Source: a virus
Strand: one strand, 5' to 3'
IMG/VR virus record: IMGVR_UViG_3300020159_003728
Coordinates: 1-64,000 of that record
DNA: 64,000 bases
The notes under the pieces are model-generated. The model saw only the letters and a program-made list of their open reading frames with translations. It did not search any database and had not been told where the DNA came from. Below are positions 44,554 to 63,825 of the stretch, piece by piece. Every line of letters begins with the position of its first letter. The stretch's first letter is position 1. The position numbers and the translations under genes were made by a program.

Positions 44554-44635
44554 ATGTACCTCTATAGAATCTCTAAGGTTCTGCTAAATTTAACCGACAA
44601 GTAGCTAAATCGCTTATTTTTTTTGGAGCCCCGAT

Positions 44636-44869
44636 ATGGATCATTATGGAATGCGAGCTGCAATGAACAGAGCACTGGGTCTTCCCGAGCCAACTGAAAC
44701 TGTTGGGATGCCGGCTCAAATTACAATTCGATCGAGCCGCGATTACTATCTCCACGATCTAATCCAGCGTTTAAATGACCGCCATGCCACTAACTATGAT
44801 CCGCTATGCAAAGAGGCAGCAGATGTAATTGCGGAGCTCACAACGCCTCCTGGACAGACATATGCTTGA
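44636..44869 (+). CDS. Small protein of unknown function
   Basis: 77 residues from ATG 44636; GGAG lies upstream, and the first CGGGRCT copy (44627-44633) sits between it and the start codon. Helical, with no known motif. It begins a chain of four tiny overlapping genes. Confidence 0.6.
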   Translation: MDHYGMRAAMNRALGLPEPTETVGMPAQITIRSSRDYYLHDLIQRLNDRHATNYDPLCKEAADVIAELTTPPGQTYA

Positions 44870-45017
44870 CGGTAGACCAACGATGTGCGATCACTGCGGA
44901 GAAATGACAGCAACGCTTACAGTATGGTCTAAAGAGGTCATAAATGCATGCTCCTGCTGGTGTCACACTCGACGAAAAGAAGGTAATGAAGTGAAAAAGA
45001 AAAAGGGCCGTAAATGA
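44862..45017 (+). CDS. Small zinc-ribbon-like protein
   Basis: 51 residues from ATG 44862, overlapping the previous gene by 8 bases. MCDHCGEM near the N-terminus and ACSCWCH in the middle provide two Cys pairs with the spacing of a small zinc ribbon. The tail is KKKKGRK. Probably nucleic-acid or protein binding. Confidence 0.62.
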   Translation: MLDGRPTMCDHCGEMTATLTVWSKEVINACSCWCHTRRKEGNEVKKKKGRK

Positions 45018-45181
45018 TCACTCCACAAACAAATCCGATGGTGTGCATAGAACATCTAGAATTCGTTCCCTGCCCACAATGCGAAAAACCACATCCGGAG
45101 TGGTATAGCAGCGATCTCGTTGCCTGGGGTATCGTCAACACTTATCGAACAAACAAAAATGAGGAAGAGGAAACAAAATGA
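45014..45181 (+). CDS. Small CxxC protein
   Basis: 55 residues from ATG 45014 in an ATGA overlap. It contains VCIEH...VPCPQCEKPHPEW, a three-cysteine, two-histidine cluster that could bind zinc, and an acidic tail. It overlaps the next gene by ATGA. Confidence 0.6.
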   Translation: MITPQTNPMVCIEHLEFVPCPQCEKPHPEWYSSDLVAWGIVNTYRTNKNEEEETK

Positions 45182-45345
45182 CCACACATCAAACACGAAC
45201 CTGGTATCCGTTGCCACAGTCCTTCAAGATTGAGAACAAAAAGACCATCTATACCGTCGTCGCATTTGCCTTCGAACGAGATGGGGTTCTCTGGCTGACG
45301 ATGGAAGGCGCAATCTTCGCAGCAGAAGCCGTCGAGGCCAACTGA
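45178..45345 (+). CDS. Small protein of unknown function
   Basis: 55 residues from ATG 45178 in an ATGA overlap, the last of the tiny-gene chain. It looks like one small beta sheet (FKIENKKTIYTVVAFAFERD, then VLWLTME). No signal or membrane helix. Confidence 0.58.
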   Translation: MTTHQTRTWYPLPQSFKIENKKTIYTVVAFAFERDGVLWLTMEGAIFAAEAVEAN

Positions 45346-45511
45346 GGTCGGAAGCCCGTGTGAGAGAGCTGTCGGCTAAATCTATCTGAGAAGTGGCCTA
45401 TAGCAGTGTCTTACAGGTGCCCCCCACCCCCAGAATGGGCAAAAAAAAAGCAAAACAGCCCCGCCCGATAGGGCGAACAAACATAACAAGCGATGACCAG
45501 ACAAAGAAAAA

Positions 45512-45536
45512 ACCCCACGCTTGTCAGGCGTGGGGT
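45512..45536 (-). terminator. Intrinsic terminator for leftward transcription
   Basis: CCCCACGC (45513-45520) and GCGTGGGG (45528-45535) form a perfect 8-base-pair stem with a 7-base loop. On the minus strand it is followed by TTTTTTC. It lies just downstream of the two small minus-strand membrane genes. A weaker pyrimidine stretch on the other side may allow rightward use. Confidence 0.85.
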
Positions 45537-45558
45537 CTCTCGTTCTCTTTGCGATTGT

Positions 45559-45705
45559 CTAGCGTCGTCTTGCCTTGACGATGAGCATAGTGACGATAGC
45601 AACGATGCCCACGACAGCACCTATGGCGTATGAGTCCCATTCAGTGACCTTTTCACACCAACCCTCAGCACAACGATAGGCATTGCCCTCAGCGATAAGC
45701 CTCAT
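45559..45705 (-). CDS. Small single-span membrane protein
   Basis: 48 residues: a soluble N-terminus with two cysteines (YRCAEGWCEK), one membrane span (about residues 26-43) and a KARRR end that would stay in the cytoplasm. Its ATG overlaps the stop of an even smaller upstream ORF, and a terminator follows directly. Function unknown. Confidence 0.6.
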   Translation of the reverse strand: MRLIAEGNAYRCAEGWCEKVTEWDSYAIGAVVGIVAIVTMLIVKARRR

Positions 45706-45773
45706 CGTGTCACCATCGCCATAAGAACCATCGGCAGAACGATTACTGCGATTACCCCAATAATGCTTAGCAT
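45702..45773 (-). CDS. Tiny hydrophobic peptide
   Basis: A 23-residue ORF with a strong AAGGAG 5 bases before ATG 45773. It is almost entirely hydrophobic (MLSIIGVIAVIVLPMVLMAM...), one membrane span. The good ribosome site and ATGA overlap with the following membrane gene support translation. It could be a membrane peptide or a leader coupling translation of the next gene. Confidence 0.55.
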   Translation of the reverse strand: MLSIIGVIAVIVLPMVLMAMVTR

Positions 45774-45889
45774 TTTCACTCCTTGTGTTTCTCAGGCTTG
45801 TTCCTGATAGAGATAAGCCTATAGACCTACTAGACCAGTGTCAAGTGTTTCCGTGTTACGGTATTGTTACAACATTTGACATGCCATAC

Positions 45890-45929
45890 CGAACGAATGT
45901 TCGCCATAGATAGACCGAACGAGTGTTCG
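45890..45929. promoter_or_regulatory. Two LexA-type SOS boxes
   Basis: CGAACGAATGTTCG (45890-45903) and CGAACGAGTGTTCG (45916-45929) are both CGAAC-N4-GTTCG, the core of the actinobacterial LexA box. They are 26 bases apart, so they sit on roughly the same DNA face. TTGACA (45876-45881) lies just upstream. DnaA boxes start 21 bases downstream. Host LexA probably represses transcription or replication start here until DNA damage. Confidence 0.75.
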
Positions 45930-45949
45930 ATTGTGTCCCCCCAATAGAC

Positions 45950-46029
45950 TTATCCACACCCTGTGTATAAACCTGTGGATAACCTCAATGGTTACCTGTG
46001 GATAACACTGTGTAAAAACCTGTGGATAA
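45950..46029. other. Cluster of DnaA boxes, candidate replication origin
   Basis: In 80 bases there are five DnaA-box matches: TTATCCACA (45950-45958), TGTGTATAA (45962-45970), and TGTGGATAA at 45974-45982, 45997-46005 and 46021-46029. A degenerate sixth (TGTGTAAAA) is at 46009. Four of the five good copies point the same way. Two LexA boxes lie just left, and the regular CGGGRCT array begins at 46045. This is the arrangement of a DnaA-dependent origin, as in a chromosome or plasmid. Origin activity is inferred. Confidence 0.75.
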
Positions 46030-46132
46030 CCTCATTACTCAAATAGTCCCGTAGAAAGAGAATGACCAATACTGCTCACGGGTGGCTTACGGGTGATTAC
46101 TCAGGGTGAATAGCAGGACTAGACTCTCACCT

Positions 46133-46345
46133 ATGAACGACACAACCATCACCTCACTAGACGGGGCTATGAAGGACTTGGAAACAATACTGCTCACGGG
46201 GTATGTCCTGGGTGTTCCAGGCTGCGCGGAGTTTCGAGAGAAGCACTATCCAACCCTCAACAGAATCCGGGACTTACTGGAAGAGGTCGATGACCTTCGA
46301 ACGGAGAAAGAACGACTCGAGCGCGTAGCTGGCTGGTCGTACTAA
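46133..46345 (+). CDS. Small helical protein next to the candidate origin
   Basis: ATG 46133 is preferred over the upstream GTG 46106 (70 residues). Helical, ending in a coiled-coil-like LLEEVDDLRTEKERLERV. It contains a CGGGGCT and a CGGGACT copy in its coding sequence. It overlaps the convergent membrane-protein gene by 4 bases. First rightward gene after the DnaA boxes; function unknown. Confidence 0.62.
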   Translation: MNDTTITSLDGAMKDLETILLTGYVLGVPGCAEFREKHYPTLNRIRDLLEEVDDLRTEKERLERVAGWSY

Positions 46346-46503
46346 CGCTTACGGGAGTCGCATCTCCAAGCAGCGACACCAATAGCAGTCATCCCAAGAG
46401 CCCCGACAATGTACCCGAAGGTCGCAGCACCAACGGCCATGGGTATAACAATCAGTACCTTACCAAGGACCCCAGCATTTTCCCAAGCGTTATTCAGTTT
46501 CAC
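46342..46503 (-). CDS. Small membrane protein
   Basis: A 53-residue ORF from GTG 46503, which directly abuts a CGGGRCT copy. It has a hydrophobic stretch of about 30 residues (VLIVIPMAVGAATFGYIVG...), one long or two short spans, and a basic end. It overlaps the upstream gene by 14 bases. No strong ribosome site, so expression by coupling is likely. Confidence 0.5.
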   Translation of the reverse strand: MKLNNAWENAGVLGKVLIVIPMAVGAATFGYIVGALGMTAIGVAAWRCDSRKR

Positions 46504-46687
46504 GGGACTGCCTGCCCTTTAAGACTGGACCACGGAGGTCATGCGTACGCAATGGGTGACCTGGAGGCAGCATCTGGCGATTCTTGCCAGCCTTCGTACC
46601 GGATCGATCCTCGCTCAGCCCCGTGAGTGGGTTGACGATCGTACGACCAATGCCTTTCGACTGAGATCCCTTGTTCTTTTTGCCCAT
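46490..46687 (-). CDS. Small basic protein with an NPLTG segment
   Basis: 65 residues, strongly basic, with TIVNPLTGLSEDRSGTKAG in the middle. The NPLTG followed by acidic residues resembles the second half of the DxDxDGF/NPxTGRDD module of the late proteins, but without the acidic loop. TAAAAT ends 5 bases before ATG 46687 and no ribosome site is seen, so the message may be leaderless. Confidence 0.58.
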   Translation of the reverse strand: MGKKNKGSQSKGIGRTIVNPLTGLSEDRSGTKAGKNRQMLPPGHPLRTHDLRGPVLKGRQSRETE

Positions 46688-46725
46688 TCTTTATTTTACA
46701 CGAGCATGATTTGGCTCTGTGTTAA

Positions 46726-47106
46726 CTAACGGGACTCCCAGGGTGCTACCGGATTACCGGCACTGCTTACCGGAGCCTGGCCGCGGGTATCGCCATCGCC
46801 ACCGAGGAGACCCTGAGTCTTTCGAGCATTGAGCTTGGAGAGGTTCATAGCCCCGATATCGTTTAGGTCGTAGCCAATCTCCGCCGCTAGTCGTGCGCAG
46901 TACCAGAGGACATCACCGATCTCGTGAGCTAGGGCTTCTCTACGCTCGGGGCTGATGACGCCGCCTTCATCACGGATGGCTTTCTTGACCTTGCCAGCTA
47001 CCTCGCCTGCTTCGGAAGCAAGACCTAACGCGGTGTACACCAAGCCTTGCTCGGGGGGATAGATCGCAGTCGGGGCTGTTGCTGCCTGATAAATAGACAG
47101 ATCCAC
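46726..47106 (-). CDS. MazG-like nucleotide pyrophosphohydrolase
   Basis: GTG 47106 is preferred (126 residues), since the longer frame to 47175 runs into the upstream gene. The MazG/all-alpha NTP pyrophosphatase pattern is visible: GLASEAGEVAGKVKKAI for the first Glu-x-x-Glu helix and EALAHEIGDVLWYCARL for the ExxD metal-binding helix. Such enzymes hydrolyse NTPs/dNTPs to monophosphates, clean up modified nucleotides or lower ppGpp. It fits with ThyX and the ribonucleotide reductase in nucleotide control. Confidence 0.83.
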   Translation of the reverse strand: MDLSIYQAATAPTAIYPPEQGLVYTALGLASEAGEVAGKVKKAIRDEGGVISPERREALAHEIGDVLWYCARLAAEIGYDLNDIGAMNLSKLNARKTQGLLGGDGDTRGQAPVSSAGNPVAPWESR

Positions 47107-47110
47107 TGGT

Positions 47111-47422
47111 TTACTCTTTCTCCTGCTCGGGGGCAGTTTCTTCGATCTCTTTTTGGAGTCGATCAAACGCTTCACCTGCTTCGGGCGGGGTCTGGAAGAC
47201 TTGCGGGGCTCCCTCTGCCTCCCATTTGTTGATCGGACACGAGGAGTGTGGGAGCATTACCTTCGCCGGCATGAAGCATCCGCATAACGCGCATCGCTCG
47301 AGCCCAGTGAAGTATTGGCAATCCTTGCAAATGTCTAAACGGGACTTACGGACCATCCTGGCCACACGAGGAATCGTTGGGTTGAGCAAGTCGTAAGGTT
47401 TTGCTTCGCGTTCTGGAATCAC
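47111..47422 (-). CDS. Conserved small phage zinc-binding protein
   Basis: 103 residues from GTG 47422 with AAAAGGAG upstream. The core CKDCQYFTGLERCALCGCFM, then HSSCPINKW, carries six or seven cysteines. This matches a small phage family with a C-x2-C...C-x2-C-G-C...SCP-x-x-KW pattern. It likely binds one or two zinc ions. Its function is unknown. The 150-base leader contains a TCGAGGG/CCCTCGA hairpin (47492-47512). Confidence 0.76.
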   Translation of the reverse strand: MIPEREAKPYDLLNPTIPRVARMVRKSRLDICKDCQYFTGLERCALCGCFMPAKVMLPHSSCPINKWEAEGAPQVFQTPPEAGEAFDRLQKEIEETAPEQEKE

Positions 47423-47575
47423 TTTTGTCTCCTTTTCAGTGGTGGCGGGCGACCATCAAGGTGGGTCTATGAGTCCCGTTTTGTTAACGCCCTCGAGGGG
47501 ACAGGACCCTCGACGGACGCTGATCGCCCTTCACTGGGAAAGGATCCAGCTAGCCACCGTGTTCAGCATAGCAAA

Positions 47576-48199
47576 TCAATCAAAGTCCCATTGAGTTCCG
47601 AAGCCCTCTTTCTCTAGCCCCGCAGCGAGTGTCTTGAAGTAGATATCCTTGTGACTCTCTGGTTCGACCTCTTTTGGCATCTCGAGGGCCTTCTGGATTA
47701 CTGCTGGGTACGCAGCATCACGAAGGCTGGAAGAGTCCCGTGTTCTCATCAGGGAGCCCCATTCCACGACCCTCCCCAGTCCAACATGGTACGGAGCAGT
47801 GACGACCTCGTAGTCAGTTGGGGTAACAAAAGTCAAGGTCAAACACTCTGATACGGGGCTGTCTTCTTCGATAAAAAGCTCACGAAGATCCCTCCCTGCG
47901 CTGCGTTCGCTGTCCACGGATACAAATCCCTCCGCCATGAATACAAACTCGTCGATACCCCAGCCTCGACGCAAGATCGATGCTGCCTGCGCCACCCGCT
48001 TGATTCGTCGGGGCTGCGAGTCGTTCATAAAGGCTGATCCCATAGTCGCAATGACCGCTAGTCGGTCGCCGCGCCAACCAAACAGAGAGAAGGTGAGATC
48101 CTCACCAACGCCATATTCCTTAATGCCCTCGACTTTGGCGGTTTTTCCTGACTCAAGACATAGTGCCAGCTTGTAGTCCCGGGTTGGGTATTCTTCCAT
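47576..48199 (-). CDS. Hypothetical protein
   Basis: 207 residues from ATG 48199. Mixed alpha/beta: TFSLFGWRGDRLAVIATMG and IDEFVFMAEGFVSVD look like sheet strands of one compact domain, followed by a helical tail. No catalytic motif or family recognised. It carries four CGGGRCT copies in its coding sequence at near-regular spacing. Confidence 0.72.
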   Translation of the reverse strand: MEEYPTRDYKLALCLESGKTAKVEGIKEYGVGEDLTFSLFGWRGDRLAVIATMGSAFMNDSQPRRIKRVAQAASILRRGWGIDEFVFMAEGFVSVDSERSAGRDLRELFIEEDSPVSECLTLTFVTPTDYEVVTAPYHVGLGRVVEWGSLMRTRDSSSLRDAAYPAVIQKALEMPKEVEPESHKDIYFKTLAAGLEKEGFGTQWDFD

Positions 48200-48244
48200 C
48201 TCGACAGTCTTTCATACCTGAGTGAACCCCAGGGTATCGTCCGG

Positions 48245-48379
48245 TTACCACTCTTCAGATCGCCAGGCCCGGTTCTCTCGACGCCGGAGAAGCCCCGACC
48301 AAGCACTCGTCTTGCTGCGACGAAGGGTTCGACAGCAGCCGTACGGGCACTGACGCTCAGCTCGCTTGTTGTGAAGCAC
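48245..48379 (-). CDS. Small Arg-rich CPYGC protein
   Basis: A 44-residue ORF from GTG 48379, with a strong AGGAGGT 6 bases upstream. It has one CPYGCC cluster and is then very rich in Arg and Trp (RRRENRAWRSEEW). The strong ribosome site argues that it is translated. It fills most of the otherwise empty gap between 48199 and 48445. Small nucleic-acid-binding phage proteins look like this; no family is named. Confidence 0.6.
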   Translation of the reverse strand: MLHNKRAERQCPYGCCRTLRRSKTSAWSGLLRRRENRAWRSEEW

Positions 48380-48444
48380 CTTGTACCTCCTGTGGTAGCC
48401 CCGTGGTTCCGCCACGAACGCTTTTTTTAGGGTAGCCTGCGGGT

Positions 48445-48786
48445 ATGAGCAACTCTAACCCATCACCCAAAAAGAAGGCTGCAGCCAAGAAGCCTGTTGC
48501 CAAGAAGACTGCGCCGAAGAAGGCCTCTTCCGGGGCTAAGAAAGAACCCGCCAAGCGTGGTCGACCCCCAAAGAAGAAGGTCGAGCAAGCTCGCGTTTAC
48601 GATCCCCTTGCGGATACGGTCGAGGACATCACCAATGCGGTCGAAGCAATGTTCGAGGAAGTTAAAGACGGGGCTGCTGAAGTGGCTGAGACAATCAAGG
48701 AAACGGTCGACAATGTGATCCGTGCCAGTGATGTCATCAAGCCCAGTCTCCGCAAGAGAATGCTCGCCTGGTTCAAACGCAAGTAA
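48445..48786 (+). CDS. Histone-H1-like Lys/Ala/Pro protein with AT-hook
   Basis: 113 residues. The first 50 are Lys/Ala/Pro-rich, like the tail of H1-type or HupB-type nucleoid proteins, and include an AT-hook core (AKRGRPPKKK). The rest is an acidic amphipathic helix (VEDITNAVEAMFEEV...) and a basic end (RKRMLAWFKRK). It is a rightward gene inside a leftward block and sits in the middle of the densest CGGGRCT region. It is a candidate architectural protein for that DNA, but AT-hooks prefer AT-rich sites, so any link is speculation. Confidence 0.75.
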   Translation: MSNSNPSPKKKAAAKKPVAKKTAPKKASSGAKKEPAKRGRPPKKKVEQARVYDPLADTVEDITNAVEAMFEEVKDGAAEVAETIKETVDNVIRASDVIKPSLRKRMLAWFKRK

Positions 48787-48805
48787 TCGGGGCTATTATG
48801 GTCGT

Positions 48806-48943
48806 ATGAAACGACCTAAATGGAATGAAGAAGATCGCTTCCTCTTTACTACTCAGCGTCTACGCGCGCATACCAGCATCAATCGTCAGAAAGAAGGCCG
48901 TCGACGAGCTTGTCGTCAGCGTTTTATCGCGGATGAGTACTAA
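48806..48943 (+). CDS. Small basic protein, probably leaderless
   Basis: 45 residues from ATG 48806, very rich in Arg (RLRAHTSINRQKEGRRRACRQR). TATTAT ends 6 bases before the ATG and overlaps the last bases of a CGGGGCT copy (48788-48794), so this copy sits in a promoter. No family recognised. It meets a convergent minus-strand gene at its stop. Confidence 0.55.
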   Translation: MKRPKWNEEDRFLFTTQRLRAHTSINRQKEGRRRACRQRFIADEY

Positions 48944-49293
48944 CGGGGCTTCTTGGTCTTTGGAAGCGGTTGACTGCGAAGTCGCTGCCCACACGCCAGA
49001 CACATCTCTGACCACGGATACCACCGGCGCTGATTTAGCGGGTGCGAACAGTCGAGTAGTTCTGTAGCTTTGGCGTTGAGACAGTCCCGTATGAATTCCG
49101 AAAGAGATACGCCCTGACTCTGAGCTGCTTGTTTCCAACGCTCGTGGTCGGCAACGCTTGCGCGGATCAGAACTTGTCTTCCAGCAGGCTCGCCAGGGTC
49201 ACTCCCCGTGTTCTTCGAACGACCGGTTGAGGTCGTCTCCGCCACCTTCTCCATTGCTGCTTCCAAATTGTCCGGGACTTCTTCTGTCGACAT
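48940..49293 (-). CDS. Ribbon-helix-helix-like protein with zinc-finger-like tail
   Basis: 117 residues, with AGGTG before ATG 49293. RQVLIRASVADHERWKQAAQ...SLSEFIRDCLN fits a ribbon-helix-helix DNA-binding core (CopG/MobC-like). The tail has CSH...MCLACGQRL, a probable Cys/His metal site. It starts 95 bases inside the end of the upstream gene in another frame, a long overlap. A repressor or an accessory DNA-binding protein is likely. Confidence 0.68.
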   Translation of the reverse strand: MSTEEVPDNLEAAMEKVAETTSTGRSKNTGSDPGEPAGRQVLIRASVADHERWKQAAQSQGVSLSEFIRDCLNAKATELLDCSHPLNQRRWYPWSEMCLACGQRLRSQPLPKTKKPR

Positions 49294-49903
49294 CTAGGAT
49301 CACCTCTTCCTCTACCGTAGCAGAGGAAGGAAGGGCTAATTGGATACCCAGCATCTCGTTCACCGTTGCTTGTGGCAAAACCCCAGATCGACCCATCAGT
49401 TCGAGTAGCTTGCGTGCCTCTGCTTCTGGATCGAATGTCTCCTTCGGGGAAGCCCCGGCTGCCGTGCCAGCAAGAACAGCGCGCGGCTCGTGACCTATTC
49501 CGACCTGCTCGACCGTCATATTGAGGTTGTTTTGCTCCATTCCAAGGAGCTTTGACCGTTGGTTCATTATCGCTAAGACCGACTGAATTGCCTTGAGATC
49601 AGGCTCAACATTGACTTCAGTCCCGTCATCAAGGGTGATCTTGCGATGTTGAGTCATTGGCCAAATCGCTTGCTGAAGTGCGTCAAGTCGCTCAAGCTCG
49701 AGACGAAGCACCTCTGGGTAGCTCGATACAGCTTCGGAATTCATTCGAGAAAGCTGCCGACCAAGGGCGGAGTTCACTGCTCGAGTGGTCATCTGGAAGC
49801 GTCGAGCTATGTCTCCGGGGGAGACGCCAGCTTTACGCATAGCAAAGATGCGTAAGTCCCGTTCAGCAAGGAACTCCTTGGTTAATCCTTCTCGTGATGC
49901 CAT
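49199..49903 (-). CDS. HTH protein, small-terminase-like
   Basis: 234 residues from ATG 49903, whose ATG overlaps the primase-helicase stop. The N-terminus has a helix-turn-helix (IFAMRKAGVSPGDIARRFQMTTRAVNSAL), followed by an oligomerising helical region (EVLRLELERLDALQQAIWP...) and SVLAIMNQRSKLLGM. This order is seen in phage small terminase subunits, which mark DNA for packaging. No large terminase is in the window, so a plain HTH regulator remains possible. The C-terminal 95 bases overlap the next gene. Confidence 0.62.
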   Translation of the reverse strand: MASREGLTKEFLAERDLRIFAMRKAGVSPGDIARRFQMTTRAVNSALGRQLSRMNSEAVSSYPEVLRLELERLDALQQAIWPMTQHRKITLDDGTEVNVEPDLKAIQSVLAIMNQRSKLLGMEQNNLNMTVEQVGIGHEPRAVLAGTAAGASPKETFDPEAEARKLLELMGRSGVLPQATVNEMLGIQLALPSSATVEEEVILDVDRRSPGQFGSSNGEGGGDDLNRSFEEHGE

Positions 49904-51618
49904 TATTCGACCTTTCGGAACTCCAGGACCTCGAATGGAAAGGTCGTGCCCCTCTTCATTTTAGTCGGAAATTCACGAACATCTCGCTCACCTCGGAAAT
50001 GCTTTACCTGATAAACGAACCCCTCTGTACTTAGTGGATCAGGCATCAGGGCCAGACCGAACTCTGGCCATCGTGACCAGACAGCCGAACCGAATGGTCG
50101 TAAGTCCCGTTGACCGGCAGTCCCAAGTGGAGCGTGGTGTTCCAGCCAGAGAGCGCAGTTGTAGACATCGCGAAGCATATCAAGGTACTTTGCTACCTCG
50201 ACAGCTAGTGCTTCACTAGTGCGGCCACCTGGATCAACGAATGCCTTGTACAAAGGACCAATACAGATCAAATCGGGGCTCACTGATTCGATTGCCTTTT
50301 CGATGAACTGCCTATCAGATGCCTTGAGGAGATCGATACCCGAGGGTTGGATCAGGATATGGGCATTAATCTTTTCCGTATGTCCGTACTTCTGGGCATT
50401 AAGCATGATCGAGCGGCTGGTGCGTCGAATGATCCGCTCTGGGTTCTCAAGGTCAATAGTCAATGTTGTGAGCGGCTTCATGTGGGTCATCTTAAATGGA
50501 TGTAGTCCCGCAGCAGAACAGATAGCGACTTGGCGTGCGAGCATCGTCTTTCCGACGCCTTCGGAGGCAACGACAATGACTCGTTCTTGCCGCTCGAGCA
50601 CTCCTGGGATAACCCAATCGTAGGAGTCGTCATACTCTTGAGTTACAAATTCTTGCCAATCTAATAGACGGCCATTCGGGACTACCTGAGGGTTGCCAAA
50701 GCTTCCAATGAGCATTGATGCTCGACTGAGCTTCTGTGTATCGGTCAGGTCATCTCGAGTCAGGACTTCGTTGATCTCATCTGCGAGTTCACCAAGCGGA
50801 TCTGCTTCTTTGATGTTCTCAATGACCACGGGGGTCATTTCATCGGCAACCTCAAGTGCGACTACTTCTTTAGGGCTGCCACCGTCGTGGAGAAAATCAG
50901 CAATGTCTTTGCCTCGTGGGGTGCGCCAAGCTCGCACGGGTATGCCAGCTTCCTCAAGTACCCCAACCACCTTCCAAGCGTGCTGACGACCGGGCTCGTC
51001 ATTGTCTGCGATGATCTCGACCTTTGCCCCAACAAGGGCATCAGTGTGAATTTGTAACCACTTACCAGCCCCGCCCGGCATTGTCGTGGCAACATACCCA
51101 AGTCCGATCAAGACATCTGCGTCTTTCTCGCCCTCGACCAGATACACCTTCTGACCAGAAATGGCTGCCTGTCTAACGGCGGGCAGGTTGTAGAGAACCT
51201 TTGGAGTATCACCAAGTTTGTAGTCCCAACCCCCGTTGCCGTCTGGCTTGCGCTGTCGGAAAGTCTTGCGCCCAGACTCATCAAGAAATCGTTGCTTCTG
51301 GAAAAGAAGAGTGCCATCTTCGTCGCAATACTTGTATGTAGCGACCAGCGTAAGTTTTTCTTTCTCGTGCTTTGGTTGCTTCGGGAATAGATCATTCATC
51401 TGTAATCCCACTGCTTCGCAAATCTCACCTACACCGCACCCACCACCGCGATGACAAGTCACTAAAACGCGCCCATCTATACCCTGACTAATAGAGAGTG
51501 ATGGATTGTCGTCGTCGTTACGGCAAGGGCAAGATGCTGTCCACCCCTCACCACTCGACTTGACGCGGTTGAGTCGACCTAGGAAGTTATCTATTTCTGG
51601 TGAAGTCGCTTTCGTCAC
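49903..51618 (-). CDS. Primase-helicase (zinc finger, TOPRIM, RecA-like ATPase)
   Basis: 571 residues. It probably primes and unwinds DNA at the phage fork. A primase zinc finger is at the N-terminus (Cys30, Cys32, Cys55, His56, Cys61). The TOPRIM domain has YLVEGEKDADVL (Glu162) and IIADNDEPG (Asp205, Asp207). A RecA-like domain has Walker A ASEGVGKTML (351-360), a Walker B-like TLTIDLE (385-391), and LICIGPLYKAF further on. This order is typical of bifunctional phage and mobile-element primase/helicases. It is coupled to thyX upstream (4-base overlap) and to the HTH gene downstream. Confidence 0.87.
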   Translation of the reverse strand: MTKATSPEIDNFLGRLNRVKSSGEGWTASCPCRNDDDNPSLSISQGIDGRVLVTCHRGGGCGVGEICEAVGLQMNDLFPKQPKHEKEKLTLVATYKYCDEDGTLLFQKQRFLDESGRKTFRQRKPDGNGGWDYKLGDTPKVLYNLPAVRQAAISGQKVYLVEGEKDADVLIGLGYVATTMPGGAGKWLQIHTDALVGAKVEIIADNDEPGRQHAWKVVGVLEEAGIPVRAWRTPRGKDIADFLHDGGSPKEVVALEVADEMTPVVIENIKEADPLGELADEINEVLTRDDLTDTQKLSRASMLIGSFGNPQVVPNGRLLDWQEFVTQEYDDSYDWVIPGVLERQERVIVVASEGVGKTMLARQVAICSAAGLHPFKMTHMKPLTTLTIDLENPERIIRRTSRSIMLNAQKYGHTEKINAHILIQPSGIDLLKASDRQFIEKAIESVSPDLICIGPLYKAFVDPGGRTSEALAVEVAKYLDMLRDVYNCALWLEHHAPLGTAGQRDLRPFGSAVWSRWPEFGLALMPDPLSTEGFVYQVKHFRGERDVREFPTKMKRGTTFPFEVLEFRKVE

Positions 51619-52617: not shown

Positions 52618-52627
52618 AGCATTCCTT

Positions 52628-53104
52628 TCAGGATCGTGATTCTGTTAGATCTCGCACTCGCCAAGTTCCACGCTTGACTTGCTCAAAGATCAAAGATGTA
52701 GTTAGGTACTTCAGCATTGTTGATGTAGAAAATCCAGTCACCTCTACGAGTTGCGAGGTAGTAAACAGCTCATTCTGATGTGTCCTTGCCCACAACTCAA
52801 ATGTCGCATAGCGAGAAGCGCGGGTTGCCTTCTCGGTATTCTCCTCGTCAAGCACTGCGGTCGGTCGCCAGCCCGGGAGATGACATCGCTCAATACGGAA
52901 GTTGCGCCACGACTCGTGACCTTTCGTTCCGCCCCAACAGGTGAGTGAACCGTCTGGACCTATGTAGCGAAAGAAGTATGACCCTTCTTCTTTTTCGACG
53001 ACTATCTGTTGGCCGACATCGATTACCGTGCCATCAACTTCTGATTTAGTAAACACGGGAACTTCTGATTTAGTAGAGGCGGAAACTTTTGATTTAGTAG
53101 GCAC
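52628..53104 (-). CDS. Winged-helix-like protein with repeated N-terminus
   Basis: 158 residues. The N-terminus is built from three 24-base tandem repeats that encode TKSEV-like units. A central beta domain (VEKEEGSYFFRYIGPDGSL) follows. The C-terminal NELFTTSQLVEVTGFSTSTMLKYL plus EQVKRGTWRV fits a winged helix-turn-helix. It could regulate the adjacent operon. The start codon lies next to a CGGGGCT copy. Confidence 0.68.
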   Translation of the reverse strand: MPTKSKVSASTKSEVPVFTKSEVDGTVIDVGQQIVVEKEEGSYFFRYIGPDGSLTCWGGTKGHESWRNFRIERCHLPGWRPTAVLDEENTEKATRASRYATFELWARTHQNELFTTSQLVEVTGFSTSTMLKYLTTSLIFEQVKRGTWRVRDLTESRS

Positions 53105-53108
53105 GGGG
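53037..53108. repeat. Three 24-bp tandem repeats
   Basis: Units at 53037-53060, 53061-53084 and 53085-53108 share ACTT-Y-TGATTTAGTA at their start with small changes in the last third. They are in frame in the N-terminus of the winged-helix-like gene, so the copy number changes only the length of a flexible tail. The third unit runs into a CGGGGCT copy. Confidence 0.85.
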
Positions 53109-53113
53109 CTAAC

Positions 53114-54837: not shown

Positions 54838-54839
54838 GT

Positions 54840-55597: not shown

Positions 55598-55640
55598 TCG
55601 ACCTCCCGAATTGCCCTGGCTCTACAAGTGTAGTGCCTAA

Positions 55641-56663: not shown

Positions 56664-56694
56664 CTCAACTCCTTTAGTTAGATTTATCTAAACA

Positions 56695-58134
56695 CTACCC
56701 GACAACAAGCGTGTCTGCGTGGAATTCGTCTAAATACCGAACGAAGGCTTTGTTGCGAGGTGAGTAATACTTCCATTTGCTCGTCAGGCTCTCGTGGGCT
56801 TCCTTGTGCGAGTAGCCCATAGCCGACATTAGCCACGCCTTTGCGATTAGCCCTGTTCGGCTCTCGCCTGCGTGACAGTGAACAAGAACATCGCGACCAT
56901 TAAATAGTGCTTCATTTATTTCAGCAATAGCATCACGAACAACGCTGTCTATTGCTGGATTTGCTTCATCTTCTTGTTCGTCAAGCAAATAGAACGAACG
57001 ACGATACTCATAATGCTCGGTGTCATCGAAGGTGCGACAGAACGACATACACGCATAGTTCTCCTCTGCGTTGCGTGCGCCGGCGAGGTTTGTGACGAAC
57101 ACCTGCTGTCCATACAAACCACCAATAGCAACCGGCTTTGGTGCGCCGTTATAGTCGGGTGATTTTGGTCGCCACGCTTGTTCTACTAATCGTGTTGCCA
57201 GCGACTCCAAGTCCTCTAGGTCGTATCGCTCCACCTTGCCATTCATCTGAACAAACCCGTGAATAGGTGTTGTCAGGCGAGCGGGAATGTTCTGAATACC
57301 ATACCAAGCACCTGCGAGTGCGCCAGCGACACAAGCAACCGTGTCGGTGTCGTTACCACCATCTATCGCATAGCGAATAGTGTCCTCAAAGTTCGTATTC
57401 TTTCTAATGGCATACACGGCCTCTGCGAGACAAATGTCCCCATAGCCATTGCTCTCACTCAATGGTAAAGAGTCAGTAAATAGCAACTCTTCGAAGTATG
57501 TGCGAAGTTTACTATCGCAATGGTCCTGTACTGCCAAGCGCATTGCGCTATCAAAAGTACGACGCCCACTAACCATCTCAGCAAGTGCGACTGCCATAAT
57601 CACCGCAGCCTCAACTGTTCGTGGATCCGTATGAGTAATCATCGCCTGTTCACGGGCGACACGCTCTGTCCACTGTGCGTCTTTCATTGCGCCTTTGATA
57701 CCTACGGGCGCAACTCGCATCACGGCACCATTGCCTCGACCATTGCGAACGCGCCGAGTTAATGACTCTTCGTATGTGCGTGCCACTAATGGTGGGCGAG
57801 TAGTTGTGCCGACATCTTTTGCTGTCTGCACCCACTCTTTCCAAAGCTCCCACTGCGCAACTGGATTCCATCGCGTAATTAGGTTTTCACCAAGCAACAC
57901 TGCCATTTGTGTGTCGTCGGTAAATTCGCCAAGACGCCAACCGAATGAACCGCCACCAATATGGCGACACGGCACGCCTTTCGGAAACTGCTTTGAGATT
58001 TCTCCCGGGGGACCAAACTCGTAGCGAGCGCCAAGCGCATCACCAACCGCTTGTCCAACAAGTGCACCAAGTGCACGATTTCTAATCTCAAAGTCATCTC
58101 TAGTGGAACGGTACTGGCTGTTATCAAACATCAT
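56695..58134 (-). CDS. Fusion of ADP-ribosylglycohydrolase and dual-specificity phosphatase
   Basis: 479 residues from ATG 58134, eight bases after TAGACT; TTGCGT is 16 bases farther upstream, so the message may be leaderless. The N-terminal 320 residues are an ADP-ribosylglycohydrolase (DraG/ARH type): GQAVGDALGARYEFG, EFTDDTQMAV with the metal Asp pair, and GGNDTDTVACVAGALAGA with the second Asp pair. These enzymes remove ADP-ribose from proteins or nucleic acids. The C-terminus is a Cys-phosphatase with P-loop HCHAGESRTG. The joint substrate is unknown. It is the only long gene of the right block with no CGGGRCT copy, which hints at late acquisition. Confidence 0.9.
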   Translation of the reverse strand: MMFDNSQYRSTRDDFEIRNRALGALVGQAVGDALGARYEFGPPGEISKQFPKGVPCRHIGGGSFGWRLGEFTDDTQMAVLLGENLITRWNPVAQWELWKEWVQTAKDVGTTTRPPLVARTYEESLTRRVRNGRGNGAVMRVAPVGIKGAMKDAQWTERVAREQAMITHTDPRTVEAAVIMAVALAEMVSGRRTFDSAMRLAVQDHCDSKLRTYFEELLFTDSLPLSESNGYGDICLAEAVYAIRKNTNFEDTIRYAIDGGNDTDTVACVAGALAGAWYGIQNIPARLTTPIHGFVQMNGKVERYDLEDLESLATRLVEQAWRPKSPDYNGAPKPVAIGGLYGQQVFVTNLAGARNAEENYACMSFCRTFDDTEHYEYRRSFYLLDEQEDEANPAIDSVVRDAIAEINEALFNGRDVLVHCHAGESRTGLIAKAWLMSAMGYSHKEAHESLTSKWKYYSPRNKAFVRYLDEFHADTLVVG

Positions 58135-58211
58135 AACGAGCAAGTCTACCCGTAATCAAGAGATACGCAACTCCCAACTACAGTTTCCTATCGTTGGGTT
58201 AGCGGAAAGAT

Positions 58212-58784: not shown

Positions 58785-58983
58785 TGAGAATCCTTCTCTA
58801 GATGGATGAGGCTATTGGGCTGAAGGGGTAGATGCCCAAGTACGGCAGTAGGTCATGTTTTTATTTTAGGAGACTCAAACTGCGAAATCTTGCCATGACC
58901 GTCAATATTGCTTTTTTTCTGTGTTTACTTAAATAACACAGCAGGTTAACGGGCTATTCTTGTTCGTGTGCCATTTGTCACAA

Positions 58984-60948
58984 TTATGTCATTTTGGCGA
59001 ATAATAGGACCAGTTCTGCAGCTCCTCGCGCGCTCGAGTCCATGAGTACCCCATCGATAGCGGCGTTTACTACGAGCCGTTTTTCCTCGATCATGTCTAT
59101 GATTTGCATGTCTATAGTGTCCTCGGCAAGCATGTATGTTGCAGTGACTGATCCAGTTTGGCCAAGTCGATGGCATCGCGAATATGTCTGGTCGACATCG
59201 CTTGGGGTCCATGGCAGTTCCACGAATAAAACATTCTGAGCAGCAGTTAAGGTATGTCCTGTCTTCGCTGCTTGGATCGACAAAACTATTGTGGGTGCAT
59301 CCTCGACGGATAGCTTCTGGAAAGATTCTTTGTGGGCTTCCACCGTTGAGACATCCATGCCTCCCTGGATCTTTAGCCCGCCATAGAGCATTGCAAGCTC
59401 GTCGACAATCTCTCGATGATGAGCAGCAACAACAACTTTCTGCCCAGCATCTATCCGGGACTGTATCCATTCCTTGATGGCTGGCATTTTTGCCTGCGCA
59501 GCAAGCTTTCGAAGTACTCCGATGCGCACTAGATGCTCACTGGCCTCGGCTTTCATTCGAGCTCGCACGGCCGCCGATCGAGGAGATTGTCCAAGCTCAA
59601 GTGCGATCTGACTGGCTCGATCAGCAAGATATTGGACAATATCGGCCTCAGCTTTTCGATATTCTGCCATTCCTTTTTCGGTGCCTTCCACGATGACCCT
59701 ACTGTGGATAACCGGAGGTAAATCTTTGAGTACTTGATCCTTTGTCCGCCGGATGTAGCACTCACCGCGCAGGCGATCATTGAGCTCATCCAGGTTTGAA
59801 TTGCCATCGATGTGCCATTGACCGTACCGATCACGGAAAGCCCCGCAGTATCGTCGATAGAAGCCCCATAGTCCGCCAAATTTATCGAGCTTTCCAATGA
59901 TGTCGAGCTGTGGTGCGTACTCCGCTGGCTTGTTTGTGATCGGCGTGCCCGTTAAACACAAAACCATTCCTTCGGACTTGACTGTTCGGGCAATCTTGAT
60001 CGCTGCCTTTGTTCGCTGCGCCGTCGGGGTTTTAGCAAAATGGCTCTCATCGAAAATGTACGAACCCATCTTGGTCAATTTGGTTTTCCAGTGATCAATG
60101 TTTGACCAGCCAACAATCAATACATCGAATGGCTCATCAGGAAAATCTTTTCGATTGGTTACGCAAACAACTTTTTTCTCGGGGAGCCACTTGGAATATT
60201 CTTTTTGCCAGTTGAGTACAAGTGTGGGTGGGCAAATAACAACTGCTGGATATGTTGCTGATTGCTGATTTCCCATCTCGATTGCAAGCATCGACTGAAG
60301 TGTTTTGCCGAGACCCATGTCGTCTGCAATAAAACAACGCCGCGCCTGTACTGCATAAGCAATGCCAGCTTTTTGATACGGCATCAAAGTTCCAGTAAAT
60401 CCAGGGACATCCATGTCCGCATCAACTGAACGCGAAGAGGAGATGAGCTTCTCGTGTCGTTCGCGTATTTCCTGCGCTTCATCACGCATTACTTCCGGGA
60501 CTTGTTCCCCGAACTTATCTGCCCACATAATGGCCTCAAAGATTGATGTCTCTGGAACTCGCCAGGCCTTTGATGGTGCGTGCCAAGTAATCCCCGGGAT
60601 CGACTTTACTGAGCGGACCTTGACTGGGTCATAGCGAAATGATAAGTAAATCCACTGATTTTCCCTAGTTACCCCAGTTGTTTCGTTGTCCGGAGCCGGC
60701 AGATCAAAAATCAATACATCATTGTCGACCCAGAAGTCTCGAGCGGCAGCGAAAGCACGAGCTTCTTCGATGCTGGACATTGGAACTCGCCATACTCGAG
60801 CAAGCTTGTCCCACTTAGCCCCGTTGATCTTCTTTACGGCAGCTACATCTTCCTGGTCGTACGGGAATATGAGTGCGAGATGATCATCAACAAGAGTTAA
60901 TGATTTTGACTCGGGGCTTTTGCCATGGATGTAAATGCTGTCGTTCAC
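58984..60948 (-). CDS. SNF2-family helicase/ATPase with two HARP-like repeats
   Basis: 654 residues. Two N-terminal repeats of a HARP-like unit (INGAKWDKLARVWRVP at 41-56 and IPGITWHAPSKAWRVP at 118-133) resemble those of SMARCAL1-type annealing helicases. The SNF2 core follows: motif I DDMGLGKT (209-216), DESH (300-303), LCLTGTPI, and motif VI SRCHRLGQTGSV near the C-terminus. It probably remodels DNA-protein complexes or anneals single strands at stalled forks, and could work with the SSB. The start overlaps nothing on its strand; a divergent zincin-like gene begins 36 bases away. Confidence 0.93.
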   Translation of the reverse strand: MNDSIYIHGKSPESKSLTLVDDHLALIFPYDQEDVAAVKKINGAKWDKLARVWRVPMSSIEEARAFAAARDFWVDNDVLIFDLPAPDNETTGVTRENQWIYLSFRYDPVKVRSVKSIPGITWHAPSKAWRVPETSIFEAIMWADKFGEQVPEVMRDEAQEIRERHEKLISSSRSVDADMDVPGFTGTLMPYQKAGIAYAVQARRCFIADDMGLGKTLQSMLAIEMGNQQSATYPAVVICPPTLVLNWQKEYSKWLPEKKVVCVTNRKDFPDEPFDVLIVGWSNIDHWKTKLTKMGSYIFDESHFAKTPTAQRTKAAIKIARTVKSEGMVLCLTGTPITNKPAEYAPQLDIIGKLDKFGGLWGFYRRYCGAFRDRYGQWHIDGNSNLDELNDRLRGECYIRRTKDQVLKDLPPVIHSRVIVEGTEKGMAEYRKAEADIVQYLADRASQIALELGQSPRSAAVRARMKAEASEHLVRIGVLRKLAAQAKMPAIKEWIQSRIDAGQKVVVAAHHREIVDELAMLYGGLKIQGGMDVSTVEAHKESFQKLSVEDAPTIVLSIQAAKTGHTLTAAQNVLFVELPWTPSDVDQTYSRCHRLGQTGSVTATYMLAEDTIDMQIIDMIEEKRLVVNAAIDGVLMDSSARGAAELVLLFAKMT

Positions 60949-60984
60949 CTGATCGATCCGTTATTCTCTGCTACTGTTCTGCGA

Positions 60985-61428
60985 ATGGCGGCCTACAAAG
61001 ACCGACAATATAGAACCTACAGGGCCGAGTGGAACACATTTACCTCCAAGAAGGTAAATCTTCCGTTCGGGTTGCCGGCGGCTAAGCGTCTTATTGCAGA
61101 GTACCTTCCAAAATGGGAACTACGATCCAGCAAAAACAATACTACCGCTGTCTGTTATGCCGTAGAAAAGAAGATTGTTCTAAATAAAACGAGCCCTTTG
61201 TGGATTGTTTGCCACGAGATAGCACATGGTCTAGTTGAGGAAAAGTGCCTTCCGCCTGGGCATCACGAAGTATTTCGTCGTTATTACATAGATGTCTGCG
61301 AAGATGCGATGAGTCCGTACTGGGCGCATAAGCTATCGAAGAGTTTTGACGCGGGGAGACTCGACTACAGGTACCCACATGAGCAGCCTTTGAGTCTTGT
61401 TGACAGAATTTACCAAATATTTAGATAA
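60985..61428 (+). CDS. Small HExxH metallopeptidase-like protein
   Basis: 147 residues from ATG 60985, which follows a TACTGT -10-like box by 7 bases. The frame is open to 60925, but that part overlaps the divergent helicase gene. VCHEIAHGLVE is a zincin motif, and a second His-rich stretch (PPGHHEVFRRYY) lies 15 residues on. SprT-like or plasmid-type (ImmA-like) peptidases are the nearest guesses. It might cut a repressor or clear proteins from DNA. Confidence 0.72.
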   Translation: MAAYKDRQYRTYRAEWNTFTSKKVNLPFGLPAAKRLIAEYLPKWELRSSKNNTTAVCYAVEKKIVLNKTSPLWIVCHEIAHGLVEEKCLPPGHHEVFRRYYIDVCEDAMSPYWAHKLSKSFDAGRLDYRYPHEQPLSLVDRIYQIFR

Positions 61429-61429
61429 C

Positions 61430-61459
61430 AGCCCCGTAGGGAAAATACACAGCGGGGCT
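61430..61459. repeat. Inverted CGGGGCT pair, hairpin copy 1
   Basis: AGCCCCG (61430-61436) and CGGGGCT (61453-61459) face each other across 16 bases. The pair starts two bases after the zincin gene's stop. The downstream 60 bases (GACGGTGGCGGATGA and flanks) recur next to copies 3 and 4. No U-run follows, so it is not a normal terminator. Confidence 0.75.
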
Positions 61460-61821
61460 CGCTTGCGTGCTGAGATGAATGACGGTGGCGGATGAACTAT
61501 GCAACTGATCAGCAGCGAACCAGCAGCGAGTACCAGCAGCGAACGCGGCCGACTGATTACCATTCGCGCCAAACACGACCCCATCGTGGGCTGGTTGATC
61601 GCAAATAGCACGCCAGGATGGGCGCACGCCGAAAGATGATCTCAGGGATGACTAGATGAACGATCAAGTCAATTGTGCGCACGAACCGACACGGCGATCC
61701 GAACCAGTATCGAGACACTGCTCGTGCCTCGCAAGACATAAGTCTTTCCCAAATTGTTGGCTCAATTAGTCGGCTTAGTAGTAATTCCATACACGCACAT
61801 TATGCCATAGTCCTACCCTTG
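61460..61821. other. Gap without a gene
   Basis: No convincing gene is seen. It contains three near-identical CAGCAGCGA-type units at about 61508-61543, a TGACGGTGGCGGATGA word shared with 63110 and 63800, and no tRNA or clear promoter before 61822. Short frames exist on both strands but lack ribosome sites. Confidence 0.5.
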
Positions 61822-61861
61822 TCAAGTATTACTTGACTACTGCTACGAATTGCCCTATGCT
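61822..61861 (+). promoter_or_regulatory. Promoter with TCAAG-N5-CTTGA operator, copy 1
   Basis: TTGACT (61833-61838), a 17-base spacer and TATGCT (61856-61861). The inverted repeat TCAAGTATTACTTGA (61822-61836) overlaps the -35. ATG 61868 follows the -10 by 6 bases, so the message is leaderless. The same operator lies at 63256-63270. Confidence 0.75.
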
Positions 61862-61867
61862 CAAGGT

Positions 61868-62080
61868 ATGGAGATGAACCGCAATGACATCGCACGAGTA
61901 TTAGTGGTCGTCGAGAATAGTTACAAGCGTCTAGTCGCTGAGGTTGGCGAAAAGATGACATGGAACGATCCTCGTCGTGCAACAGCGTGGGCGACTGCGC
62001 TTGCTGAGGCCGAAAAGATTATCGGCCGACCGCTAACTGGAGTTGAGGTCACCAAGGCAACTTTCCTAATCCCACTATGA
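61868..62080 (+). CDS. Small helical protein, leaderless
   Basis: 70 residues from ATG 61868 (ATG 61874 also possible), placed by the upstream promoter. Helical (VLVVVENSYKRLVAEVG, then ATAWATALAEAEKIIG). Such small helical proteins are common in phage early regions; no family recognised. First of three genes in a rightward operon. Confidence 0.65.
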   Translation: MEMNRNDIARVLVVVENSYKRLVAEVGEKMTWNDPRRATAWATALAEAEKIIGRPLTGVEVTKATFLIPL

Positions 62081-62096
62081 CTGAAAGGTAAAAATT

Positions 62097-62354
62097 ATGA
62101 ACACCATTCCAGCCGAGCGCGCAGCGCAGGCAAATCTAAGTCCAATTGCCGAAGCTATCTTGGATGGTTACTACACTCTCTGTTCGGGTGGAGAAACCAT
62201 CGAGTATGTCATTAGCGACTATCTCTCGCGCACGCCCGAGAGCGGTATGCTCCCTTGGGGTATTGACGGGGAGACGCCAGTTAGTCCGTTGGAATTTCTC
62301 TCAGCCATCGAGGAACTCATCATGTGGTTTCGAGAGAAGGGCGAGGTTTTGTAA
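62097..62354 (+). CDS. Small acidic protein of unknown function
   Basis: 85 residues with AAAGG before ATG 62097. Helical with a conserved-looking WGIDGETPVSPLEFLSAIEEL. It lies 16 bases after the first gene of the operon. No family recognised. Confidence 0.65.
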   Translation: MNTIPAERAAQANLSPIAEAILDGYYTLCSGGETIEYVISDYLSRTPESGMLPWGIDGETPVSPLEFLSAIEELIMWFREKGEVL

Positions 62355-62358
62355 GCCA

Positions 62359-62772
62359 ATGAAAAAAACATTTACAGACAAAATCGGGAAAAAGTGGGAT
62401 GTCACACTCACCACCAAGTTGATCAATGGCCGACAGGAAATCGTATCCGTCAAAATTGAAACAACTGACTCAAAGCCCGTCTCACGAAAAGCACTATCCA
62501 GCATCTCACTTGAAGAAATCTTACGAGATGAACTAAAAGAAAAGTCGCCAGCCTTATCCCGAATACTGAAACAGCGTGAAAAAACTTCACACCAAGGGCG
62601 AGCACACTCCGATGACGACCTACAAGCAGTCGCAGACATCTATATGGCGGCTCACATGGCACGAGTACCAGTACAGCGGGCAGTGGCAAATGCTCAAGGG
62701 ATAAGTGTGTCTACCGCCTCAAAGCGTATTATGGCGGCTCGAAAAGCTGGAATGATCAAGTCTTCGGATTGA
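62359..62772 (+). CDS. HTH DNA-binding protein
   Basis: 137 residues from ATG 62359, 4 bases after the upstream stop. The first 60 residues form a beta-rich domain. The C-terminus, RVPVQRAVANAQGISVSTASKRIMAARKAGMI, is a clear helix-turn-helix with recognition helix VSTASKRIMAAR. It is the best local candidate for the protein that binds the TCAAG-N5-CTTGA operator of its own promoter. Confidence 0.72.
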   Translation: MKKTFTDKIGKKWDVTLTTKLINGRQEIVSVKIETTDSKPVSRKALSSISLEEILRDELKEKSPALSRILKQREKTSHQGRAHSDDDLQAVADIYMAAHMARVPVQRAVANAQGISVSTASKRIMAARKAGMIKSSD

Positions 62773-62813
62773 ATAGTTTTATCCGGTTCTATTCCTCCGT
62801 CAGAGAGAGTTGG

Positions 62814-62847
62814 GAGCCCCGTAGGGATCTAGACAAGAACGGGGCTC
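62814..62847. repeat. Inverted CGGGGCT pair, hairpin copy 2
   Basis: GAGCCCCGT and ACGGGGCTC form a perfect 9-base-pair stem across 16 bases, 41 bases after the HTH gene. The flanks differ from the other copies. No U-run follows. Confidence 0.78.
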
Positions 62848-63041
62848 GCGAGCCAGGCAATCTTTGTTGACGCTGCCTGGGAGAAGTTTTTGCTTTACCG
62901 GCCCGCGAAGATCCAGAAAACCAGCTTCCAGGGGCCCAGATCTGAACTTTTTTGCTGAATTATCATGCGGCCGCACCGATGTCAAGCTCTCGACGGGTAA
63001 ATTTTAGCCATCGAGTCCGCCATCTTTGGCCTTTGAAGGGG
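62848..63041. other. Gap without a gene
   Basis: No gene is visible. The stretch holds several short GC-rich palindromic words (for example TGCCTGG/CCAGGCA around 62855-62880). Frames on the minus strand lack starts with ribosome sites. Confidence 0.45.
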
Positions 63042-63140
63042 GATGCGAGGACATTTCTGGAATTAGCCCCGTGGGTTGATTTACCTAGCGGGGCTTGCGT
63101 GCTTACTGAGATGACTGACGGCGGCGGATGAGTCAAGTCA
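63042..63140. repeat. About 100-bp repeat with inverted CGGGGCT pair, copy 3
   Basis: ATTTCTGGAATTAGCCCCGT at 63053-63072 is identical in the copy at 63733. The inverted pair is at 63065-63071 and 63089-63095. TGACGGCGGCGGATGAGT follows. Alignment with 63726-63825 extends over about 100 bases with gaps. Confidence 0.8.
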
Positions 63141-63190
63141 ATGATCTGCTCGAGCGGCGGATGAGTCAAGTCAATGATCTGCTCGAGCGG
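63125..63190. repeat. Exact 33-bp tandem duplication
   Basis: 63125-63157 is repeated without a change at 63158-63190. Each unit contains GAGTCAAGTCAATGATC and CTCGAG. The GTCAAGTCAA words are similar to half of the nearby TCAAG operator. Confidence 0.9.
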
Positions 63191-63255
63191 AACCTGCATC
63201 CGCACATTGACGGCCGATCTTGATCTAGACGACCAAACTTATCGTTTACTACTTG

Positions 63256-63296
63256 TCAAGCATTACTTGACTATTGCCATAGAGCTGGCCTATCAT
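63256..63296 (+). promoter_or_regulatory. Promoter with TCAAG-N5-CTTGA operator, copy 2
   Basis: TCAAGCATTACTTGA (63256-63270) overlaps TTGACT (63267-63272); TATCAT follows after 18 bases (63291-63296). The layout matches the promoter at 61822-61861 with one base changed in the operator. Here a 42-base leader with AAAGGAG precedes the gene. The leader begins with GATAGTG/CACTATC (63300-63320), a perfect 7-base inverted repeat near the transcript start. Confidence 0.75.
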
Positions 63297-63338
63297 CGGG
63301 ATAGTGAAGTTATCACTATCAACATCAAAGGAGTATCG

Positions 63339-63602
63339 ATGAGTATCGGATATAAGGTATGTGCAGAAATGAATTACCCGTCGGGTCTAAGGATCCACGA
63401 ATGGAATTACTACTTAGTCAATGACGCAACACTCTTACCGTTGGCCTGGGTAACAATGTCAGACGACGAGAAGGCTACTTATCTCAATGAGGACTCTAAC
63501 TGTCATTGGGTCAAAGGTTGGATCACCGGTGACGATCTCGAAGTTACTGACGACGAGGCTGGCCTTCAGGATTACAATGTCGTAGAAGTGGGAGAGTGGT
63601 AG
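63339..63602 (+). CDS. Small acidic protein of unknown function
   Basis: 87 residues from ATG 63339 with AAAGGAG upstream. Acidic, Trp- and Tyr-rich, and predicted beta. Controlled by the same type of operator as the operon at 61868, so probably made at the same time. No family recognised. Confidence 0.7.
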   Translation: MSIGYKVCAEMNYPSGLRIHEWNYYLVNDATLLPLAWVTMSDDEKATYLNEDSNCHWVKGWITGDDLEVTDDEAGLQDYNVVEVGEW

Positions 63603-63725
63603 TCCATCCGATGAGGACCTGCTCATCGTGGCTGTCGTAGATGCGGAGATTCGCAATCGAGTGGGGCAAGATCACCCCGTCGGTTTGGCGAGTCTTCTCG
63701 CCCCCCGCCCCTGATGCAATTAGAG
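63603..63725. other. Gap without a gene
   Basis: No gene is visible in these 123 bases. A GATGAGGACCTGCTCATC palindrome-like word lies at 63609-63626, just after the stop, and could be a weak terminator or operator. Confidence 0.4.
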
Positions 63726-63825
63726 GTGATGCAGGAACATTTCTGGAATTAGCCCCGTGGGTAAATTTCCTAGTCGGGGCTCACCTCAAGTATCACTCAT
63801 CGACGGTGGCGTATGAGTCGAGTGA
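63726..63825. repeat. About 100-bp repeat with inverted CGGGGCT pair, copy 4
   Basis: Second copy of the block at 63042-63140: ATTTCTGGAATTAGCCCCGT at 63739-63758, inverted pair at 63751-63757 and 63775-63781, then CGACGGTGGCGTATGAGTCG. Together with the copy at 61430 this shows a mobile or amplified intergenic element. Confidence 0.8.

Follow-up and report, generated by a model that had tools for sequence, protein, structure and literature searches.

The seven-base word CGGGRCT is concentrated around a probable replication origin and in the early-gene zone of a family of uncultured freshwater phages (IMG/VR), where it is under selection, obeys rules of spacing and orientation, and co-occurs with a small phage protein that may read it. 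The window analysed here, which comprises the first 64,000 bases of the 66,395-base IMG/VR record IMGVR_UViG_3300020159_003728, holds exactly 62 copies (41 CGGGGCT and 21 CGGGACT; 31 per strand), the last of them at 63775-63781, and the remaining 2.4 kb of the record add three more, giving 65 in all. The initial annotation had counted the same 62, confined to 44.6-63.8 kb with none seen by eye to the left, and had put the chance expectation there at about four. The exact count agrees, with zero in 1-44626, and an order-2 Markov model predicts ~4.2 copies (2.2 + 2.0) in 44.6-64 kb (Poisson P for 62 = 2e-49) and about 5 in the first 44.6 kb. The further contention that coding bias could not explain the sites is borne out by a codon shuffle that keeps proteins and per-gene codons unchanged, in which genic sites averaged 6.1 over 300 shuffles and never exceeded 14, against 47 observed, as well as by conservation of the sites in relatives. 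Of all one-base variants of the word, enrichment is confined to the G/A switch at position 5; the word is asymmetric and lacks a conserved flank. By rough ORF calling, nearly all window sites lie within ORFs, with every frame represented, and 34 are sense and 26 antisense to the gene. A literature search found nothing on the word CGGGRCT.

The gene content of the phage is of actinobacterial type, including WhiB, Thy1 and a primase-helicase ~30% related to Arthrobacter phages (Tank, for example). Genes for replication and small early genes occupy the right third of the window, and structural genes the left 44 kb. Also encoded in the window (56695-58143) is a fusion of ADP-ribosylglycohydrolase and dual-specificity phosphatase domains, the target of which is possibly host ADP-ribose signalling. 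Scanning with the primase returned 79 loci, many bearing the same word, and whole records were then examined. CGGGRCT is common to phages whose proteins differ by half, and selection on the sites is demonstrated by their retention at 70-75% DNA identity, which reaches 74% vs 13% for permuted control words (in aligned pairs that are non-independent). Conservation is restricted to the 7 bp, and the aligned pairs include 164 G/A switches at conserved sites. Outside the origin/early zone the word is avoided, with 12 copies seen in ten genomes vs 40 (order 3) to 64 (order 2) expected (P 1.7e-7). One further word cluster, in locus L074, proved to be a strand-biased low-complexity stretch.

Within the zone, spacing is far from random. 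Over the 23 sites in 46045-48788, gaps average 125 bp and never fall below 98 bp; their coefficient of variation, 0.13, compares with 0.94 for random placement and 0.20 when sites are packed at random under a 90-95 bp exclusion. Gaps grow with distance from 46.0 kb, from 119 through 134 and 195 to about 350-1000 bp (Spearman 0.76); no helical phasing was detected among the window sites, and their spacing is independent of orientation. Across seven array genomes, only 17 gaps are shorter than 90 bp, vs 75 expected. The dense end of the window lattice adjoins a cluster of DnaA boxes (Table 1), the probable replication origin, and in 11/11 array genomes examined the distance between the site-density peak and a perfect DnaA box is 0.2-2.9 kb. 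Most array genomes contain several to 18 perfect boxes, vs about 0.2-1 expected, and in genomes that have compact pairs alone (described below) such boxes are mostly absent or single. The 128.6-kb genome G131, in which the primase spans the contig ends, carries all 61 of its sites in 84-120 kb, adjoining its single DnaA-box cluster at 94-102 kb.

Other elements accompany the boxes. In the window, palindromes CGAACGAATGTTCG and CGAACGAGTGTTCG (45890-45903 and 45916-45929), which we take to resemble actinobacterial LexA (SOS) boxes, lie beside them. An element of the form GGTARAAACAACAACCT...GTTATCCACAGNTTTATCCACAG, with DnaA boxes 12 bp apart, recurs several times per genome in G001, G005, G007 and G009, as if each had many origin-like or DnaA-regulated spots.

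Orientation is also constrained, in two forms. In most relatives, neighbouring sites within 150 bp of each other have opposite orientations (124:6 overall; inverted:same 13:0 in G001, 9:0 in G003, 8:0 in G005, 21:0 in G009 and 24:1 in G130), and beyond 300 bp neighbour orientation is random. Minimum distances, with few exceptions, are ~42 bp for outward neighbours, 80 bp for inward neighbours and ~142 bp for sites of the same orientation. The window lattice does not alternate (13:10). The second form comprises compact outward pairs, 24-26 bp apart, in G014, G017, G019, G020 and partly G126 and G131; at the right end of the present record, 10 of the 65 sites form five inverted pairs 23-25 bp apart, four of them inside the window, and these are located between genes, unlike the single-site lattice. 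An element of the intergenic regions that carries ACGGTGGCGGAWGA or ACGGTGGCGGAAAGG also lies near compact pairs and DnaA boxes (at 61482, 63118 and 63803 in the window, and in G001, G009, G019 and others), present in at most 13 copies per genome and mostly in one orientation.

Table 1. Coordinates of features in the 64,000-base window.
Feature	Position	Strand	Remarks
Structural-gene part	1..44626		CGGGRCT absent, about 3-5 expected
Zone with all 62 CGGGRCT of the window	44627..63781		exact count
Five DnaA boxes	45950..46029		four perfect TTATCCACA, 12-24 bp apart; lattice starts 16 bp rightward
Quasi-regular lattice of 33 single CGGGRCT	46045..50683		gaps 98-166 bp to 48.8 kb, then up to ~240 bp by 50.7 kb
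Two ACGGGTG words	46078..46095	+	11 bp apart, beside DnaA boxes; second word of the phage family
Alternative candidate reader	48940..49293	-	conserved; C-terminal Cys/His motif; sequence matches ribbon-helix-helix families weakly
Alternative candidate reader, conserved helix-turn-helix protein	49199..49903	-	recognition helix variable
DNA primase-helicase	49903..51618	-	query by which relatives were found
Best candidate reader, 158 aa	52628..53104	-	N-terminal DUF7246/phrog_1338 domain; C-terminal winged-helix-like (residues ~95-152)
Inverted outward CGGGRCT pair	61430..61459		offset 23 bp; intergenic
Inverted outward CGGGRCT pair	62815..62846		offset 25 bp
Inverted outward CGGGRCT pair	63065..63095		offset 24 bp; then GACGGCGGCGGATGA
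Inverted outward CGGGRCT pair	63751..63781		offset 24 bp; then GACGGTGGCGTATGA

This arrangement likely reflects a nucleoprotein array that covers the origin/early zone, and we put at roughly 0.45 the probability that CGGGRCT is a duplex site of a phage protein, likeliest the product of 52628-53104, which forms a lattice over that zone with bridging or silencing as the outcome. The analysis demonstrates the sites themselves, the selection on them, their zoning, their rules of spacing and orientation and their co-occurrence with the protein, and from these we infer binding, bridging and the function of the array. The phage-encoded protein, with that of 52628-53104 favoured, would recognise CGGGRCT in duplex DNA; the sites tile the origin/early-gene zone, most densely at the DnaA boxes, and selection clears them elsewhere. 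Bound proteins would meet pairwise. In most relatives neighbours are inverted, either as compact 24-26 bp outward intergenic pairs or as single sites that lie 42-200 bp from each other across genes, and most single sites keep at least ~90-100 bp apart. The resulting lattice would mark the origin/early zone and hold it in a state unlike that of the late genes, most likely through bridging or silencing; condensing or segregating the DNA are further possible roles. The more elaborate proposal, whereby the winged-helix protein reads each 7-bp site, its N-terminal domain sets neighbour distances and orientations, and the array physically separates the origin/early zone from the late genes, is tentative and more doubtful as a whole.

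The initial annotation had named four DNA-binding proteins of the window, among which that of 52628-53104 is now the best candidate and most likely the reader. Its ~58-residue C-terminal domain is present in array genomes, and a scan with this domain returned 46 contigs, 40 of which are enriched for CGGGRCT (659 vs 122); among the non-enriched contigs, in at least one case (G131) the word occurs elsewhere in the same record. No such protein was found in the incomplete word-bearing records G006, G016, G017, G019, G020, G021, G144 and G145, and the link between word and protein is strong but not exclusive because some word-bearing records, nearly all incomplete, are without the gene. The match of the C-terminal domain to AbiEi_4 is weak (E 0.014; 16 bits vs a curated cut-off of 25). 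The N-terminal part is of the DUF7246/phrog_1338 type in the window and G131 and a different domain in others, and N-terminal type correlates with neighbour orientation (17:15 for the DUF7246 type, 124:6 for the other; Fisher 3e-8, or 9e-7 in a reduced set), a correlation that amounts to one contrast because only two genomes have the DUF7246 type.

Two of the other named proteins, the helix-turn-helix protein (49199-49903) and the ribbon-helix-helix-like protein (48940-49293), fail as sole readers, both being present also in records without the array; predicted structure models for both are weak. Searching cultured phages by tblastn gave no homologue of any of the three candidates. The fourth protein (48445-48786), encoded in the densest part of the lattice, is lysine-rich and histone-H1-like with a KRGRPPKKK AT-hook-like motif, and has homologues in G006, G019, G021 and G022. 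Altered words were also considered as a guide to the reader, namely GGGGGCT in the L243 group and TGGGGCT in L257/L258; the first is part of an intergenic repeat and the second is in part that of a 21-24 bp repeat, and both were dropped as recognition-helix evidence because these repeats confound them. The almost exclusive use of CGGGACT in L237 may still be a hint of this kind.

The sites could instead act as bidirectional, stoperator-like roadblocks, at which a bound repressor halts elongation one way and the two orientations together silence the early zone. Exclusion of the word from late genes and the location of sites inside genes would suit such a role, as would the separation of same-orientation sites by at least ~142 bp with opposite ones closer, as though there were a separate lattice for each direction. 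We nonetheless regard it as unlikely, given that site and gene direction are unlinked, that spacing in the window ignores orientation, that density tracks DnaA boxes and not promoters, and that a search of 12 mostly incomplete records found no phage integrase domain.

It is likewise improbable, to a shade greater degree, that the array is a replication or segregation device, working as a centromere-like region or as a replication factory where a DnaA-dependent origin lies. The position of the density peaks, the widening of gaps away from 46.0 kb and the excess of DnaA boxes in array genomes all speak for it, but most genomes with compact pairs alone are without those boxes, the window record has no ParB_N domain, and a ParA-like protein occurs in only 1/12 records. 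ParAB partition and lysogeny genes were looked for in the window record and not found. Lagging-strand priming does not account for the sites because their numbers are equal on both strands, and primase priming sites are rejected because neither strand is preferred and no sites occur in the late half.

There is a very small chance that a host protein reads the word, whether Chi-like, translocase-guiding or regulatory, or that it serves a modification system. Its presence in such diverged phages would suit this, and its form, an asymmetric 7-mer with one degenerate base, resembles such motifs; against this, both orientations are equally frequent, the window proteins searched include no DNA methyltransferase, and in 60 Actinomycetota genomes the word is no more enriched than its reversal, with its pairs at chance level in 100. 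Slighter still is the prospect that inverted copies pair as stems in RNA or single-stranded DNA, which the inverted neighbours of most relatives and the ability of compact pairs to form hairpins, in some relatives with long inner stems, might suggest, but which sits poorly with the non-alternating window neighbours, the want of any Rfam match and the absence of covarying pairs at single sites. Since the G/A identities of neighbouring single sites vary independently of one another (odds ratio 1.2) and inverted complementarity stops at the 7 bp, each single site appears to be read singly; on these grounds the single CGGGRCT is a duplex-DNA site and not an RNA stem. A stem role is possible for compact pairs alone.

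Other dispersed words occur in these phages. ACGGGTR forms a strand-fixed array with a mean spacing of ~530 bp over ~10 kb, independent of gene direction and often with tandem copies 9-11 bp apart at its end; its carriers are G019-G022, G002, G017 and G018 (L066, L081, L104-L105 and others), and it seems to be linked with replication or some other polar process. A dispersed intergenic word, TTATCTAC or AGTTATC, is found in G014 (L110-L117), G018, L243 and L248, with more than 100 matches over 151 kb in G014.

CGGGRCT is a clear case of a DNA-level code, composed of word, spacing, orientation and zone, which overlies coding sequence and is selected across diverged phages. This kind of genome organisation is previously undescribed. 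If the more elaborate proposal is true, it would amount to a phage equivalent of positioned chromatin, embedded in coding sequence. The analysis yields a few candidate proteins and a 7-bp target that are immediately testable, and bears on the organisation of replication and the early-to-late switch in phages with host-type origins.

Among known systems, the partition site parS, to which ParB binds, is palindromic and ~16 bp long. The CGGGRCT array is like parS/ParB and other origin-proximal organising sites in clustering near a DnaA-box origin and being absent elsewhere; the word is, however, asymmetric, and ParB_N domains occur in 4/12 relatives but not in the window record. Chi and KOPS are host words, polar along the entire chromosome. 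CGGGRCT resembles them as a short exact word selected inside genes, but is neither polar, with its equal numbers per strand, nor enriched in the 60 Actinomycetota genomes, in nearly all of which it falls below its reversed control. The initial annotation had likened the copies to dispersed sites of DNA-binding proteins, which stands as a general description, and specifically to stoperators, which does not; its nucleoid-protein parallel is possible. Stoperators of cluster A mycobacteriophages (L5, TipsytheTRex) are 13 bp long, occupy short intergenic spaces, follow the direction of transcription and serve a temperate immunity repressor (PMC9283540). Like the present array, they are dozens of short, asymmetric, near-invariant sites across a phage genome, read by a single small phage DNA-binding protein (PMC9283540), which here is a candidate. 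CGGGRCT, too, is a short asymmetric site in more than 20 copies, but one of 7 bp that is mostly genic rather than at promoters or in short intergenic spaces, in both orientations irrespective of transcription, lattice-spaced, origin-centred and avoided in late genes. Nearest in spirit are the 17-bp repeats of cluster O mycobacteriophages (Corndog), compact palindromes of 7 + 3 + 7 bp with invariant 7-bp arms at 34 sites, which are genic and intergenic, denser toward the right genome end and without orientation bias, in phages with no integrase, and the function of which is unknown (PMC4351075). Unlike these, CGGGRCT occurs as the 7-mer alone, as at most sites, or in pairs offset by 23-26 bp (24-26 bp in relatives) in place of a 3 bp spacer, and it has spacing and orientation rules and is centred on an origin.
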